The notes below the pieces were generated by a model. It saw nothing but the letters and a program-made list of their open reading frames with translations, ran no database searches and had not been told where the DNA came from. From a virus, in IMG/VR virus record IMGVR_UViG_3300022907_000124, positions 1-20,317 of that record: 20,317 nucleotides of DNA. One strand, given 5' to 3'. A program made the position numbers and the translations under genes. Positions within the stretch are counted from its first letter, which is position 1, and each line of letters opens with the position of its first letter. This document shows positions 7,035-19,866 of the stretch, piece by piece.

Positions 7035-7065
7035 AGTGTGGGGGGAAACCCCCACACTTCTTTTT
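7035..7065 (+). terminator. Intrinsic terminator after the giant structural gene
   Basis: GTGTGGGGG (7036-7044) pairs with CCCCCACAC (7049-7057) around a GAAA tetraloop, and A7035-T7058 extends the stem to 10 bp. The T-rich tract TTCTTTTT (7058-7065) follows. It sits 7 nt after the stop codon of the 2020-aa gene and ahead of the gene 13 promoter. The downstream GTGTGG (7066-7071) could also pair with CCACAC (7052-7057), an alternative that would disrupt the terminator stem. Confidence 0.9.
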
Positions 7066-7084: not shown

Positions 7085-7092
7085 GATAAATA
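7085..7092 (+). promoter_or_regulatory. Late promoter box, near-consensus (GATAAATA)
   Basis: GATAAATA is followed by CTATA, so from its second base on it matches the extended T4 late consensus TATAAATACTAT; only the first base differs. It lies just after the terminator and 37 nt before the gene 13 ATG, so it is the likely promoter of the 13-14-15-16-17 operon. Confidence 0.7.
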
Positions 7093-7128: not shown

Positions 7129-7872
7129 ATGGCAACACCCACATCTAGAGCAGACTTTAAGGAATATTGCCTTCGAAAATTAGGTAAGGGCGTTATTCAA
7201 ATTAACGTGTCTGACCAACAAGTAGAAGACAGAATAGATGATGCATTAGAGTATTTTCAAGAATATCACTCTGACGCAATCACTCGTACCTACGTCAAGC
7301 ATCAAGTCACTCAAGCAGATATCGACAATGAGTATATCTCACTAGACAATAGTGTGACTACTGTTGTGCGTGTATTAAGCATTGATGACGGAACCGCATC
7401 TTCAAGCATGTTTGATGTGCGTTATCAGATGCATCTAAATGACGTATTCGATTTCACTTCCGTAGATGCATCCCAATATGTTTCTATGCGTCAACATCTA
7501 ACGATGCTTGACGACTTGTTTAATGGTACTACACCAATTAGACATGAAAGACATACTGACAGACTTTACATGGACATGAATTGGTCTGACAATCTCGTAG
7601 TAGATTCATACATTATTATCGAATGCTATAAGGTTATTGACCCAACAACTTTTCCTCAGATTTGGGGAGATAGATTCCTAAGAGAATATTGTACCGCACT
7701 CGTTAAAGAACAGTGGGGTATGAACGTGTCAAAATATGAGGGCATTTCACTACCAGGTGGTGTCACCATGAATGGTCGTGCTATCTTAGATGAAGCAAAA
7801 ACTGAAATTGCAGAACTAGAAGAACAGATGCAATTAAGACATGAATTGCCAGTTGACTTCTTCCAAGGGTGA
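7129..7872 (+). CDS. 13: gp13 neck (head completion) protein
   Basis: This 247-aa protein has an N-terminus with SRADFKEYCLRKLGKGVIQINV and QQVEDRIDDALEYFQEYHSDA (quoted in part), which is the typical opening of T4-like gp13; T4 gp13 is about 309 aa, so this is a shorter marine-type version. gp13 binds with gp14 at the portal after packaging, sealing the filled head and forming the docking surface for the tail. The start at 7129 is supported by GGAG at 7121-7124 and the late promoter box at 7085. It is the first gene of a tightly packed run, with gp14 beginning 7 nt after its stop. The assignment rests on sequence flavour plus the diagnostic order 13-14-15-16-17. Confidence 0.92.
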   Translation: MATPTSRADFKEYCLRKLGKGVIQINVSDQQVEDRIDDALEYFQEYHSDAITRTYVKHQVTQADIDNEYISLDNSVTTVVRVLSIDDGTASSSMFDVRYQMHLNDVFDFTSVDASQYVSMRQHLTMLDDLFNGTTPIRHERHTDRLYMDMNWSDNLVVDSYIIIECYKVIDPTTFPQIWGDRFLREYCTALVKEQWGMNVSKYEGISLPGGVTMNGRAILDEAKTEIAELEEQMQLRHELPVDFFQG

Positions 7873-11695: not shown

Positions 11696-13591
11696 ATGCC
11701 ATTTCAACTAAGTCCAGGTGTTAATGTCAGTGAAATTGACTTGACAACCGTAGTACCCGCAGTTGCGGCAACAGGTGGTTGTATTGCTGGAGAATTTGCA
11801 TGGGGTCCAATCATGGAGCGTAAACTGCTTGGTGACGAAGACTCAGTTGCAAATATGTTCGGTAAACCAACCAACACTACCGCAATTTCTTTCTTTACCG
11901 CTGCAAACTTTCTTGCATACGGTAACTCACTACAAATCGTTCGTGTAGCACAAACAGGTCAAGCAAACGCAACCACAGATGGTAGCACTGGTTCTGACGC
12001 TCTACTAATTGAGAACGATGAAGATTGGGAAAACAATTGGGAAGGTGGTCAGAATGTCGTTTCTGGTCGCTATTTCGCTGCTAAGTATGCAGGTGCTTTG
12101 GGTAACACCCTAAAAGTATCCGTGTGTCCTTCTGCCGCTGCTTTCCGTTCAACAGTAAACGTTTCAACTACTGGTGCAACTCTTACTCTAACCTCTGGTA
12201 ACCCAGAAGACCATCTAGCAGTTGGTTCTTTGGTAATCTACGGTGGTGAGACTCGCCAAGTCGAAGCAATTACCGCAGGAACTTCTGCAACTCTAGACTC
12301 TGGATTCTCAAGCGATATCTCTGCCGCTGACGCAACTTTCGAGTGGGAATACGCAACATCATTTGATGGCGCACCAGGTACTTCACCATACGCAGAGAAG
12401 CGTGGTGCTTCAAATGACGAAATGCACGTTGCAGTCATTGACGAAGACGGTGAGTTTTCAGGTACTAAAGGCGAAGTAGTCGAGAAGTTTGCTTTCGTTT
12501 CTAAAGCACCTTTCGCACTAAATGCAGACGGTTCAACAAATAACTACAAGAATGTAATCGACAGACGCTCATTCTTCATCCGTTGGATGGACCACAATTC
12601 TGGTTCAAACGCCAATTGGGATACCCCTGCTGCAAATGGAGTAGATTACAACGCTACACCTATCACAATGCCAAGCACTTGGTCAATGAGTGGTGGTTCT
12701 AACGGTGTTGCTGCTTCTGACGCACAGAAAATCAACGGTTACGACATGTTTGCTAACGCAGAAGAAGTGGATGTTTCACTAATTCTTGGTGCAGACGCTA
12801 ACCAGACTATCGCATTGCACCTAGTTGCAATGGCAGAGTCTCGTATGGACTGCGTAACATTCCTATCACCTGAGTTCTCAGATGTTGTTAACAACGCTGG
12901 TAGCGAAGCAACAGATATCGTAGAGTTCCGTAACTCTCTACCTTCATCTTCATACGCTTTCCTAGACGGTAACTGGAAGTATCAATACGACAAGTACAAC
13001 GATGTGTATCGTTGGGTACCATTCAACGGTGACGTTGCTGGTCTAGTTGTTCGTGCAACTGATACTCGTGACGCATGGTGGTCACCTGCTGGTTTCAACC
13101 GTGGTGGAATTAAGAATGTTGTTAAGACTGCATGGACTCCTAGCAAAACTTACCGTGATGAATTGTACAAGAACAACATCAACCCAATCTTGGTATTCCC
13201 AGGCGAAGGTTGTATTCTATTCGGTGACAAGACACTACTTGCTAAACCAAGTGCGTTTGACCGTATCAACGTAAGACGCTTGTTCATCGTAATGGAAAAA
13301 GCGATTGCAACTGCTGCAAAATACTCACTCTTTGAGTTCAATGACCAGTTCACTCGTTCAATGTTCCGTAACATGGTAGAACCATTCTTGAGAGATGTTC
13401 AAGGTCGCCGTGGTATTTACGACTTCCGTGTTGTTTGTGACGAATCCAACAATACTGGCGAAGTAATTGATAGAAACGAATTTATTGGTGACATTTATGT
13501 TAAACCAGCACGTTCTATCAACTTCATCCAGTTGAACTTTGTTGCTGTCCGTACAGGCGTTGACTTCTCCGAAGTAGTCGGTCAATTTTAA
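11696..13591 (+). CDS. 18: gp18 contractile tail sheath protein
   Basis: This protein has 631 aa (T4 gp18 is 659). The N-terminus PFQLSPGVNVSEIDLTTVVP and the C-terminal run (RSMFRNMVEPFLRDVQGRRG, YDFRVVCDESNN, GDIYVKPARSINFIQLNFVA) are hallmarks of T4-like sheath proteins. gp18 polymerises around the gp19 tube and contracts to drive the tube into the cell. The conserved C-terminal half forms the inner, tube-facing domain. Residues about 150-220 contain a G/T/S-rich beta module (TGATLTLTSGNPEDHLAVGS, YGGETRQVEAITAG) in the surface-exposed part. The start is supported by AAGGAG shortly before the ATG. Gene 19 follows after a 29-nt gap, so the two are probably co-transcribed. Confidence 0.96.
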   Translation: MPFQLSPGVNVSEIDLTTVVPAVAATGGCIAGEFAWGPIMERKLLGDEDSVANMFGKPTNTTAISFFTAANFLAYGNSLQIVRVAQTGQANATTDGSTGSDALLIENDEDWENNWEGGQNVVSGRYFAAKYAGALGNTLKVSVCPSAAAFRSTVNVSTTGATLTLTSGNPEDHLAVGSLVIYGGETRQVEAITAGTSATLDSGFSSDISAADATFEWEYATSFDGAPGTSPYAEKRGASNDEMHVAVIDEDGEFSGTKGEVVEKFAFVSKAPFALNADGSTNNYKNVIDRRSFFIRWMDHNSGSNANWDTPAANGVDYNATPITMPSTWSMSGGSNGVAASDAQKINGYDMFANAEEVDVSLILGADANQTIALHLVAMAESRMDCVTFLSPEFSDVVNNAGSEATDIVEFRNSLPSSSYAFLDGNWKYQYDKYNDVYRWVPFNGDVAGLVVRATDTRDAWWSPAGFNRGGIKNVVKTAWTPSKTYRDELYKNNINPILVFPGEGCILFGDKTLLAKPSAFDRINVRRLFIVMEKAIATAAKYSLFEFNDQFTRSMFRNMVEPFLRDVQGRRGIYDFRVVCDESNNTGEVIDRNEFIGDIYVKPARSINFIQLNFVAVRTGVDFSEVVGQF

Positions 13592-13620: not shown

Positions 13621-14142
13621 ATGGCATTTACAATTGACGGTTTCAGAGCAGAACTAACTGGCGGTGGCGCAAGAAGTAACCTGTTCGAATGTGAAATCAC
13701 CAACCCCTTCGGTGGTAGTGATAAATTCACTTTCATGGCGAAAGCATCACAACTTCCAGGTGACACTCTTGGTGTAATCGAAGTACCATACTTTGGTCGT
13801 ACTATGAAGGTTGCAGGTAACCGTACATTCGCAGAATGGACAGTTACAGTTATCAACGATGAAGACTTTGCAGTACGCAATGGTCTAGAGCGTTGGATGA
13901 CTTCAATCAACTCTCATATCTTGAACGTTGGTACACCTTCACCTATCCTACAGAAGTCTATTGGTACTATCAAGCAGTTTAGTAAAGATGGTTCACCAAT
14001 CAAGACCTATACATTTATTGGCATCTTCCCTGCGGATTTGTCACCAATTGATGTAGCATGGGATTCTAACGATACAATCGAAGAGTTTACAGTTACATTC
14101 CAGTATGACTACTGGATTGACGCTGCAAACGCAGTAATCTAA
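13621..14142 (+). CDS. 19: gp19 tail tube protein
   Basis: This protein has 173 aa (T4 gp19 is 163). The sequence carries the typical tail-tube pattern: a start with FTIDGFRAELTGGGARSNLF, then FMAKASQLPGDTLGVIEVPY with GRTMKVAGNRTFAEWTVTV, and a closing EEFTVTFQYDYW. It forms stacked hexameric rings making the channel through which DNA leaves the head. The start has TAAGGAG 5-11 nt upstream. A terminator hairpin follows 11 nt after the stop, so the 18-19 pair forms a transcription unit, partly separated from the head genes. Confidence 0.95.
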   Translation: MAFTIDGFRAELTGGGARSNLFECEITNPFGGSDKFTFMAKASQLPGDTLGVIEVPYFGRTMKVAGNRTFAEWTVTVINDEDFAVRNGLERWMTSINSHILNVGTPSPILQKSIGTIKQFSKDGSPIKTYTFIGIFPADLSPIDVAWDSNDTIEEFTVTFQYDYWIDAANAVI

Positions 14143-14153
14143 AAAGGGTTCTC

Positions 14154-14183
14154 GGGGGGTCTATAAATAGATATAGACTCCCC
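14154..14183 (+). terminator. Terminator-like hairpin after gene 19, overlapping the gene 20 promoter
   Basis: GGGGGGTCTATA (14154-14165) pairs with TATAGACTCCCC (14172-14183), giving 12 bp with one G-T wobble and a 6-nt loop. It is followed by AGAATTTAATTT, which has only short T-runs, so termination may be partial. The late promoter TATAAATA (14162-14169) spans the top of the left arm and the loop. Transcripts started from that promoter would carry only the right arm and could not form the hairpin. Confidence 0.7.
14162..14169 (+). promoter_or_regulatory. T4-type late promoter box (TATAAATA) for the head gene cluster
   Basis: This is an exact TATAAATA followed by GATATAG, 43 nt before the gene 20 ATG. 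It is embedded in the hairpin of the preceding terminator. It would start the transcript of genes 20, 67, the 124-aa gene, 68 and 21. Confidence 0.75.
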
Positions 14184-14212
14184 AGAATTTAATTTAGATA
14201 GGATAATATTTT

Positions 14213-15715
14213 ATGGCAAAGTTGTTTGGTTTTGAAATCACCCGACTCGGGCAAGGAGATTCCGATAGTCTTCCATCGTTTGTCGCACCGACAAATGACG
14301 ATGGTGCGTTGGAAATCCAAGAAGGCGGTATCTTTGGTCAATATCTTGACCTAGAAGGTAAGTCTAAATCCGAAGAAGAGTTGATTAATCGTTATCGTGA
14401 GATGGCGATGCAACCAGAATGTGAAACTGCGATTGATGATATCATCAATGAAGCAGTTGTGCAAGAAGATAAAGAAAGTCCAGTTTCAGTAAACTTGGAC
14501 GGTATTGATTTTGGTGCGGGTGTTAAGAAACGCATCACAGAAGAATTCGATAATGTCATGCGCCTACTGGATTTCAGTAACTATGGTGCAGACATTTTTA
14601 AGCGTTGGTACGTTGATGGTAGATTGTATTACCACAACGTTATTGATGTTGATAGACCAAATGAAGGTCTCAAAGAATTGCGCTTTATTGACCCAAGACA
14701 GATTAAGAAGGTCAGGAAAGCAATAGAAAAGAAAGACGCAGACACTAATGTGTCAGTGTTTAAAGAGTTCGAAGAATTTTTTGTATACAGTGAAATGGGT
14801 ATCAGTAATTCGGAGCAAGGCATTAAGATTGCTAAAGACTCTGTTACCTATGTTACAAGTGGTTTGCTTGACAAAGACGGTAAGCAAGTTATTTCTTACC
14901 TACATAAAGCAATCAAACCTCTTAACCAACTGAGGGCAGTCGAAGACGCAGTAGTTATCTACAGATTGTCTCGTGCGCCTGAACGTAGAATTTTCTATGT
15001 GGACGTTGGTAACCTGCCTAAAGGTAAAGCAGAACAATATCTGCGAGACATTATGGCAAGGTATAAGAACAAAATTGTATATAATGCAACGACAGGTGAG
15101 ATTGATGACAGTCGTAAACACATGTCGATGCTTGAAGATTTTTGGATGCCTCGTAGAGAAGGTGGTAGAGGTACAGAAGTTTCTACCCTACCTGGTGGTC
15201 AAAATCTAGGTGAGATGGATGACGTTAACTACTTCAAATCGAAGTTGTACAAGTCATTAAACGTTCCATCTTCAAGACTAGATAGTGAGAACCAATTCTC
15301 TATTGGTAAGACCGAAGAGATTACTCGTGATGAAATCAAGTTCAACAAGTTCATTAAGAAACTTAGAATTCGATTCTCACATTTGTTTGACGATTTGCTC
15401 AAAAAGCAACTAATCCTAAAGGGTGTTATTGCACCAGAGGATTGGGAAGAGTTGAAAGACAACATCTTCTACGACTTTAAAGCAGATACGCATTTTGCAG
15501 AATTGAAGAACCAAGAAATTCTGCGTGAAAAAATTGGTTTGTTGGGTGAAATCGAACCATACGTTGGTAAATATTTCTCACGACAAATGGTACTTAAAGA
15601 CATTCTCGGTTATTCTGACCAAGACATTGAGGACTTAGCGACTCAGATTCAGAAAGAAATCGACAATGGAGATATCGGTAATGAAGAAGATGAACAAGGC
15701 GGGGGTTACTACTAA
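14213..15715 (+). CDS. 20: gp20 portal protein
   Basis: This protein has 500 aa (T4 gp20 is 524). The portal dodecamer occupies one capsid vertex, nucleates prohead assembly, and serves as the docking site for gp17 and then gp13/gp14. The diagnostic stretch EDFWMPRREGGRGTE (from residue 308) followed by STLPGGQNLGE and YFKSKLYKSLNVPSSRL is the region widely used to identify T4-like portals. Earlier segments (YREMAMQPECETAIDDIINE, SNYGADIFKRWYVDGRLYYH) also match the family. The C-terminus is short and acidic (IGNEEDEQGGGYY). The start has AGGA at 14200-14203. The stop overlaps the ATG of the next gene (TAATG at 15713-15717). Confidence 0.97.
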   Translation: MAKLFGFEITRLGQGDSDSLPSFVAPTNDDGALEIQEGGIFGQYLDLEGKSKSEEELINRYREMAMQPECETAIDDIINEAVVQEDKESPVSVNLDGIDFGAGVKKRITEEFDNVMRLLDFSNYGADIFKRWYVDGRLYYHNVIDVDRPNEGLKELRFIDPRQIKKVRKAIEKKDADTNVSVFKEFEEFFVYSEMGISNSEQGIKIAKDSVTYVTSGLLDKDGKQVISYLHKAIKPLNQLRAVEDAVVIYRLSRAPERRIFYVDVGNLPKGKAEQYLRDIMARYKNKIVYNATTGEIDDSRKHMSMLEDFWMPRREGGRGTEVSTLPGGQNLGEMDDVNYFKSKLYKSLNVPSSRLDSENQFSIGKTEEITRDEIKFNKFIKKLRIRFSHLFDDLLKKQLILKGVIAPEDWEELKDNIFYDFKADTHFAELKNQEILREKIGLLGEIEPYVGKYFSRQMVLKDILGYSDQDIEDLATQIQKEIDNGDIGNEEDEQGGGYY

Positions 15716-19781: not shown

Positions 19782-19800
19782 TAGGTAGATACTAAGAAGA

Positions 19801-19817
19801 GTAGGACTTGAACCTAC
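19801..19817 (-). repeat. Stem-loop resembling a tRNA T-arm (minus strand)
   Basis: Read on the minus strand, GTAGG-TTCAAGT-CCTAC is a 5-bp stem with a 7-nt loop matching the TTCRANY pattern of a tRNA T-arm. No matching acceptor strand, D-arm or anticodon arm is found around it, so it is not a tRNA gene. It may be a remnant or a coincidence. It lies between the gene 23 stop and the terminator. Confidence 0.35.
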
Positions 19818-19826
19818 CAACCTTTT

Positions 19827-19853
19827 AGGGGACTCTTCGGAGTCCCCTTTTTT
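19827..19853 (+). terminator. Strong intrinsic terminator after gene 23
   Basis: GGGGACTC (19828-19835) pairs with GAGTCCCC (19840-19847) around a C(TTCG)G tetraloop, the exceptionally stable type. A19827-T19848 can add one pair, and six Ts (19848-19853) follow. It ends gene 23 transcription 46 nt after the stop. Confidence 0.95.
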
Positions 19854-19858
19854 ATGCG

Positions 19859-19866
19859 TATAAATA
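19859..19866 (+). promoter_or_regulatory. T4-type late promoter box (TATAAATA) after the gene 23 terminator
   Basis: This is an exact TATAAATA followed by GTATG, starting 5 nt after the terminator T-run. The expected RNA start (about 19872) excludes upstream ATGs at 19854 and 19869 as practical starts and supports ATG 19899 for the next gene. Confidence 0.75.

Follow-up and report, generated by a model that had tools for sequence, protein, structure and literature searches.

A late promoter motif nested in the hairpin between the tail tube and portal genes of T4-like phages: a candidate transcript-boundary element

The stretch of DNA analysed here (the window), a virus record of 20,317 bases, comes from a T4-like phage; PHROGs assignments identify genes for the large terminase, the sheath (gp18), gp19, gp20, the protease, the scaffold and the major capsid protein. 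The tail tube gene (gp19) and the portal gene (gp20) are separated by a spacer of 70 nt, which holds a 12-bp hairpin at 14154-14183. Its arms are 12 nt long and 92% Watson-Crick paired, the twelfth pair being G-U, and the predicted minimum free energy of -18.8 kcal/mol (14154-14183) falls to -26.6 kcal/mol when the folded stretch is widened to 14140-14215. The T4-type late promoter motif, TATAAATA, occurs seven times on the plus strand of the window and not at all on the minus strand (0.97 expected), and the copy at 14162-14169 lies in the right orientation, 44 nt before the gp20 start, as a T4-type late promoter should. The first-pass annotation of this DNA had placed the motif in the top of the left arm and the loop of a 12-bp hairpin following gene 19, and both the sequence and the fold confirm that this nesting is real. 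According to the T4 late promoter rule (PMC1524935), TATAAATA spans -13 to -6, and the features of the junction are as follows:

13621-14142, plus strand: gp19 tail tube gene (phrog_45)
14137-14143, plus strand: ATCTAAA, which overlaps the gp19 stop codon and could form the 5' side of a closing stem (70% complementary over 20 nt)
14154-14165, plus strand: left arm, GGGGGGTCTATA, with compensatory changes in relatives; it would be missing from RNA started at the nested promoter
14162-14169, plus strand: TATAAATA, predicted to span -13 to -6 and shared between the top of the left arm and the loop; invariant in alignment A1 (below)
14166-14171, plus strand: 6-nt loop, AATAGA, from the fold
14172-14183, plus strand: right arm, TATAGACTCCCC, from the fold
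14175, plus strand: where the head transcript is predicted to begin by the T4 rule, 6 nt past the motif
14193-14199, plus strand: TTTAGAT, which by complementarity could form the 3' side of that closing stem and abuts the Shine-Dalgarno sequence
14200-14203, plus strand: AGGA, the Shine-Dalgarno-like sequence of gp20, which the core stem does not include
14213-15715, plus strand: gp20 portal gene (phrog_213)

The possible closing stem ATCTAAA/TTTAGAT is weaker in the sequences L004/L005. Homologues of the late sigma factor gp55 were found in all seven of the relatives' records that were searched (E 1e-16 to 2e-20). A search of the window against Rfam gave 0 matches at the gathering score, and ARAGORN found no tRNA in it. 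On the minus strand at 19798-19822, just after gp23, there is a stretch, GGTTGGTAGGTTCAAGTCCTACT, that resembles a tRNA T-arm and 3' end and is possibly a tRNA relic.

The nesting lies far beyond chance and is conserved with compensatory changes. An ungapped scan of the window found four hairpins of -15 kcal/mol or lower, the one at 14154 being the second strongest, whereas 20 block shuffles gave 0.05 on average and never more than 1. When the motif was held fixed and its flanks were shuffled, the window site scored -25.4 against a mean of -4.0, and none of the 60 shuffles reached the native value. We then scored covariation on 14 named pairs in an alignment of the window with eight relatives (alignment A1), in which 90.5% of the cells were paired. 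Changes on both sides of a pair were seen in eight cells, compared with 2.9 in shuffles, and fell at three pairs (G-C/U-A, A-U/G-C and G-C/A-U). The covariation score was 0.262 versus 0.157 in shuffles (none of 500 reached it), and structures slid along the alignment scored at most 0.123; two of the five covariation measures did not exceed the shuffles, namely the number of pairs with both-sided change (reached by 143 of 500) and the number of pair types (494 of 500). Throughout A1 TATAAATA is invariant while the hairpin sequence varies and pairing persists. The covariation around a fixed TATAAATA that the first-pass annotation had put forward as a comparative check is thus borne out by the compensatory changes in A1, and an arm-swap test agrees: for 37 nested hairpins, which we sorted by stem sequence into 14 stem families, the mean fold was -18.8 kcal/mol for the native sequences, -7.5 kcal/mol when right arms were swapped between families and -6.4 kcal/mol when the flanks were shuffled.

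The arrangement is concentrated at one position in the genome. Viral contigs were scanned, blind to location, with the pattern GGGGN{1,4}TATAAATAN{6,13}CCCC, and a hairpin was called strong if it had at least 7 cross pairs and a fold of -15 kcal/mol or lower. Among the matches listed there were 96 sites, 30 of which had a strong hairpin, and 23 of those 30 lay no more than 120 nt upstream of a gp20 start. A second set of gp19-gp20 spacers was collected by protein search, and was therefore not chosen for nesting; it comprised 105 distinct spacers, or 86 after an ungapped dereplication that counts indel-bearing relatives separately. Nineteen of the 86 were nested, five had the hairpin and then the promoter (tandem), seven had the motif but no hairpin preceding or enclosing it, 32 had a hairpin without the motif, and 23 had neither. 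The nested form thus accounts for 19 of the 31 motif-bearing spacers, and these 19 fall into six stem families by our own grouping. In this classification the "nested" label of Aeh1 is spurious by eye, as a strong hairpin precedes the motif, and S-CAM8 is classed as having the motif without an upstream hairpin despite a 6-bp nested stem (-7.2 kcal/mol).

Among 21 reference phages (18 representatives once dereplicated), the Acinetobacter group (Octan, ZZ1) shows clear nesting and S-B64 and Melnitz a weaker form of it, the tandem form is found in T4, CC31 and Vibrio phage K352, and 8 of the 18 representatives have the motif but no hairpin preceding or enclosing it. The element occurs in cultured T4-like phages of Acinetobacter (Octan, AbTZA1 and ZZ1), and its stem is nearly identical among four Acinetobacter lineages. 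In T4 itself (L165, 9124-9208) a hairpin without a U run follows gene 19, with TATAAATA ~30 nt further on, a tandem version at the same junction. On a gp20 tree of 88 rows, from which T4, Mosig and AG-345-E15 were left out, five changes account for the nested label, which 43 rows carry; together with the differences in stem between clades, these label changes imply that the architecture arose, disappeared or was rebuilt on several occasions. Rows that are related are not independent observations, and all of these counts show clustering rather than probabilities. Judged by sequence, the nested arrangement recurs with unrelated stems at a single junction, gp19-gp20, in many T4-like phages. It is not required there, given the 8 of 18 references with the motif and no hairpin before or around it and the 32 of 86 spacers with a hairpin and no motif. 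A gp19-gp20 gap of ~500-780 nt, with apparent room for an extra gene, is seen in L020-L025, L027-L029, L037, L042, L211 and L226, and in such phages the nested or terminator element stays beside gp20.

The position of the predicted start gives the arrangement its likely consequence. In every one of the 47 nested spacers that were measured, this predicted start falls within the right arm and leaves 3-17 nt of it, so that RNA born at the promoter cannot form the hairpin. The earlier proposal that read-through RNA forms the hairpin and promoter RNA cannot is accordingly upheld for the window, where the T4 rule (PMC1524935) predicts a start near 14175 and a transcript that is missing the left arm. 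From the sequence we infer promoter activity, the start site and an effect of the hairpin on the tail transcript. The reading that we favour, and regard as moderately probable, is that of a transcript-boundary element, in which the hairpin marks read-through RNA only and the nested head promoter lets head transcripts escape. Polymerase arriving from genes 18-19 would make RNA with both arms, and the hairpin would then form and mark the end of the tail-gene message, whether through termination, through pausing and processing, or through protection of the 3' end. The gp55-type late promoter of the head operon would be built into the hairpin top; head transcripts would begin near 14175 in the right arm, without the left arm, and would be exempt from the boundary.

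How the end would be marked is a separate question, for which the window offers two hairpins of a more familiar kind:

7035-7058, plus strand: canonical U-run terminator, followed in tandem by the late-like GATAAATA at 7085-7092
19827-19848, plus strand: canonical UUCG terminator after gp23, followed in tandem by TATAAATA at 19859-19866

A terminator scan of the window listed these two hairpins and did not list the one at 14154-14183. The latter is a stable, GC-rich stem-loop following a gene, as an intrinsic terminator should be, but its tail is AGAATTTAATTT and not a U run, with an nT of 0.96; the values for the two canonical terminators are 3.2 and 4.1. The nested element resembles these T4-like intrinsic terminators in being a GC-rich hairpin that follows immediately on a gene and lies at the boundary of an operon, close to a late promoter, and differs from them in that they have a U run and that their late or late-like motif lies 10-26 nt past the hairpin, whereas that of the element lies inside it. 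The three intergenic strong hairpins of the window, two tandem and one nested with the promoter, thus mark late-operon boundaries. The only non-intergenic member of the four strongest is an 11-bp hairpin at 423-448 (-16.7 kcal/mol), within a short ORF at 385-645. As the U run is missing and the scan did not list the hairpin, we do not accept canonical intrinsic termination in the window, and intrinsic termination of any kind at this hairpin is only possible. The first-pass annotation had called it a terminator hairpin and proposed that the same 30 bases could both end the tail transcript and start the head transcript, and that initiation complexes could hinder polymerase from upstream as a roadblock; the nesting and the exempt promoter RNA stand, but the name "terminator" is not established for a stem without a U run, at which termination is something that we infer.

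Elsewhere the case for termination is better. Nested hairpins with good U runs occur in L027/L037, L214/L275 and L209/L212 (nT 3.5-5.4; the fixed 24-nt stretch shortens some tails, e.g., in L166, L167, L258, Octan and ZZ1, for which nT is underestimated), and in these U-run families a terminator role is well supported and likely from the sequence. The nested hairpin of the cultured Acinetobacter family is, like that of the window, without a U run. In the spacer before gp20 of L027, L029 and L037, CTAAATA, which is the late motif reported for Aeh1 (PMC1524935), lies within a hairpin that has 7-8 U directly after it, i.e., a nested promoter in a textbook terminator.

One clade carries two hairpins. 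In L020-L022, L024, L025, L033 (with L039 and L041) and L038/L042, a second, terminator-like hairpin with a U run or T-rich tail comes after the nested one, and 9 nt of its loop region are complementary to the predicted 5' end of the late RNA (GCGTAATAG/CTATTACGC or GTAATAGTT/AACTATTAC). This complementarity is present in eight of nine tested sequences, L023 being the one without it, and for none of the eight does the fraction of shuffles reaching it exceed 0.0015. In this clade the late RNA is predicted to begin with GUAAUAG; among 117 TATAAATA sites, drawn from 11 contigs or genomes, only three are followed by GTAATA, one of the three being the element itself. In the predicted read-through folds, these late-start bases are for the most part tied up in the nested hairpin. 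Together with the complementarity, this suggests for these relatives a promoter-gated attenuator that would stop read-through RNA and pass promoter-born RNA. As the late RNA is still predicted to fold into the terminator hairpin, such an effect would have to be kinetic or act by loop pairing. The two-hairpin arrangement is absent from the window. We offer only tentatively the wider idea that the gp19-gp20 junction is an origin-dependent transcript boundary, a 30-bp element that would end or mark upstream RNA and exempt its own, and that it evolved into a two-hairpin attenuator in one clade.

The principle of a promoter inside a hairpin is already known from T4. Late promoters lie inside inhibitory leader hairpins of T4 e, soc, 49, I-TevI and segB and of Aeh1 mobE, and these hairpins hide the Shine-Dalgarno sequence or AUG of a gene that is to be silent early (PMC3014915 and PMC2988022). 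The likeness is close, in that the late promoter occupies the DNA of the 5' strand of the hairpin and is lost from promoter-born RNA, and read-through RNA folds while promoter-born RNA cannot. They differ from the gp19-gp20 element in that the ribosome site is in their stem, whereas the element lies between two late genes and has a U run in several families. Our TATAAATA scan recovers T4 ribosome-site hairpins as positives (e, I-TevII and 26). At gp19-gp20, in contrast, the Shine-Dalgarno sequence is outside the core stem in all 47 nested spacers (0/47 overlap) and the predicted start is in the right arm in all of them, and the element is thus not a ribosome-site hairpin of the e/I-TevI type. 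Hairpins that do look e-type, with TATAAATA inside and a right arm ending in AAGGAG, are found elsewhere, in L195 (G012) at 7567 and L194 (G009) at 13316.

A related alternative, which we consider unlikely, is translational insulation, whereby the extended hairpin (core plus closing stem) in read-through RNA would limit ribosome access to gp20 and the promoter-born RNA would be open. Such a mechanism would resemble that of T4 e, soc or I-TevI, minus the Shine-Dalgarno sequence in the stem, and the T4 precedent is established (PMC3014915 and PMC2988022). We computed opening energies for 18 sequences, with L111 and L101 left out. For all nine members of the window family, opening the -18..+5 region is predicted to cost more energy in read-through RNA than in RNA from the promoter (8.7 vs 4.1 kcal/mol in the window). 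However, the Shine-Dalgarno stretch of the window alone barely differs (3.4 vs 2.7), and the nine other spacers are mixed, with the read-through value higher in five, equal in one and lower in three. Given these mixed values and the Shine-Dalgarno sequence outside the core stem in every nested spacer, sequestering of the ribosome site is rejected as a general function; a minor translational role in the window family is possible, but it is not the shared function. The seg43 hairpin of Aeromonas phage 25 (PMC2988022) is similarly a very stable hairpin directly upstream of a free ribosome binding site, but the passage that describes it makes no mention of a nested late promoter.

It is less likely still that the hairpin serves mainly as a substrate for RNase III or another processing activity, with cleavage in the long stem splitting read-through RNA into a tail and a head message, to which the nested promoter would add uncut head RNA. 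Such processing would suit the long, near-perfect stems of the window family (13-18 bp in the core, longer with the closing stem) and would make a U run unnecessary, but it fits poorly with the short cores of 7-9 bp in L020-L025 and L033. We regard as improbable a function of the palindrome as DNA, either as the operator for a dyad-binding protein or as a cruciform acting on the promoter. The arms are indeed palindromic around a promoter, but the arm sequences are not common to the families, and there is thus no common operator; furthermore, G-U pairs are tolerated in one orientation only. Owing to these pairs, the plus-strand RNA is the more stable of the two strands in 30 of 37 nested hairpins (means -18.8 vs -14.6), a bias strongest in the window's family, which disfavours both DNA readings and implies that selection probably acts on RNA. 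That a terminator-like hairpin and a late promoter overlap by coincidence, in short spacers that crowd signals together and that include five tandem arrangements and seven with no hairpin before or around the motif among the 31 motif-bearing, is very improbable in view of the compensatory changes, the arm-swap and shuffle controls and the 23 of 30 strong location-blind matches, among those listed, that fall at this junction.

A literature search of open-licence papers found no account of a late promoter inside a gp19-gp20 boundary hairpin, or of a promoter inside a terminator. What appears to be new, as far as that literature goes, is a late promoter in the hairpin of the gp19-gp20 operon boundary that recurs across lineages and leaves the ribosome site untouched. 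If the transcript-boundary reading is correct, the fate of an RNA would be set by the position at which it starts, without a dedicated protein and within ~30 bp, and the element would be a compact terminator-promoter part. The tail message would end and the head message begin at the same place, with both units separately tunable. The recurrence of the arrangement with unrelated stems at one junction points to selection for separate transcription of the tail tube and portal genes.
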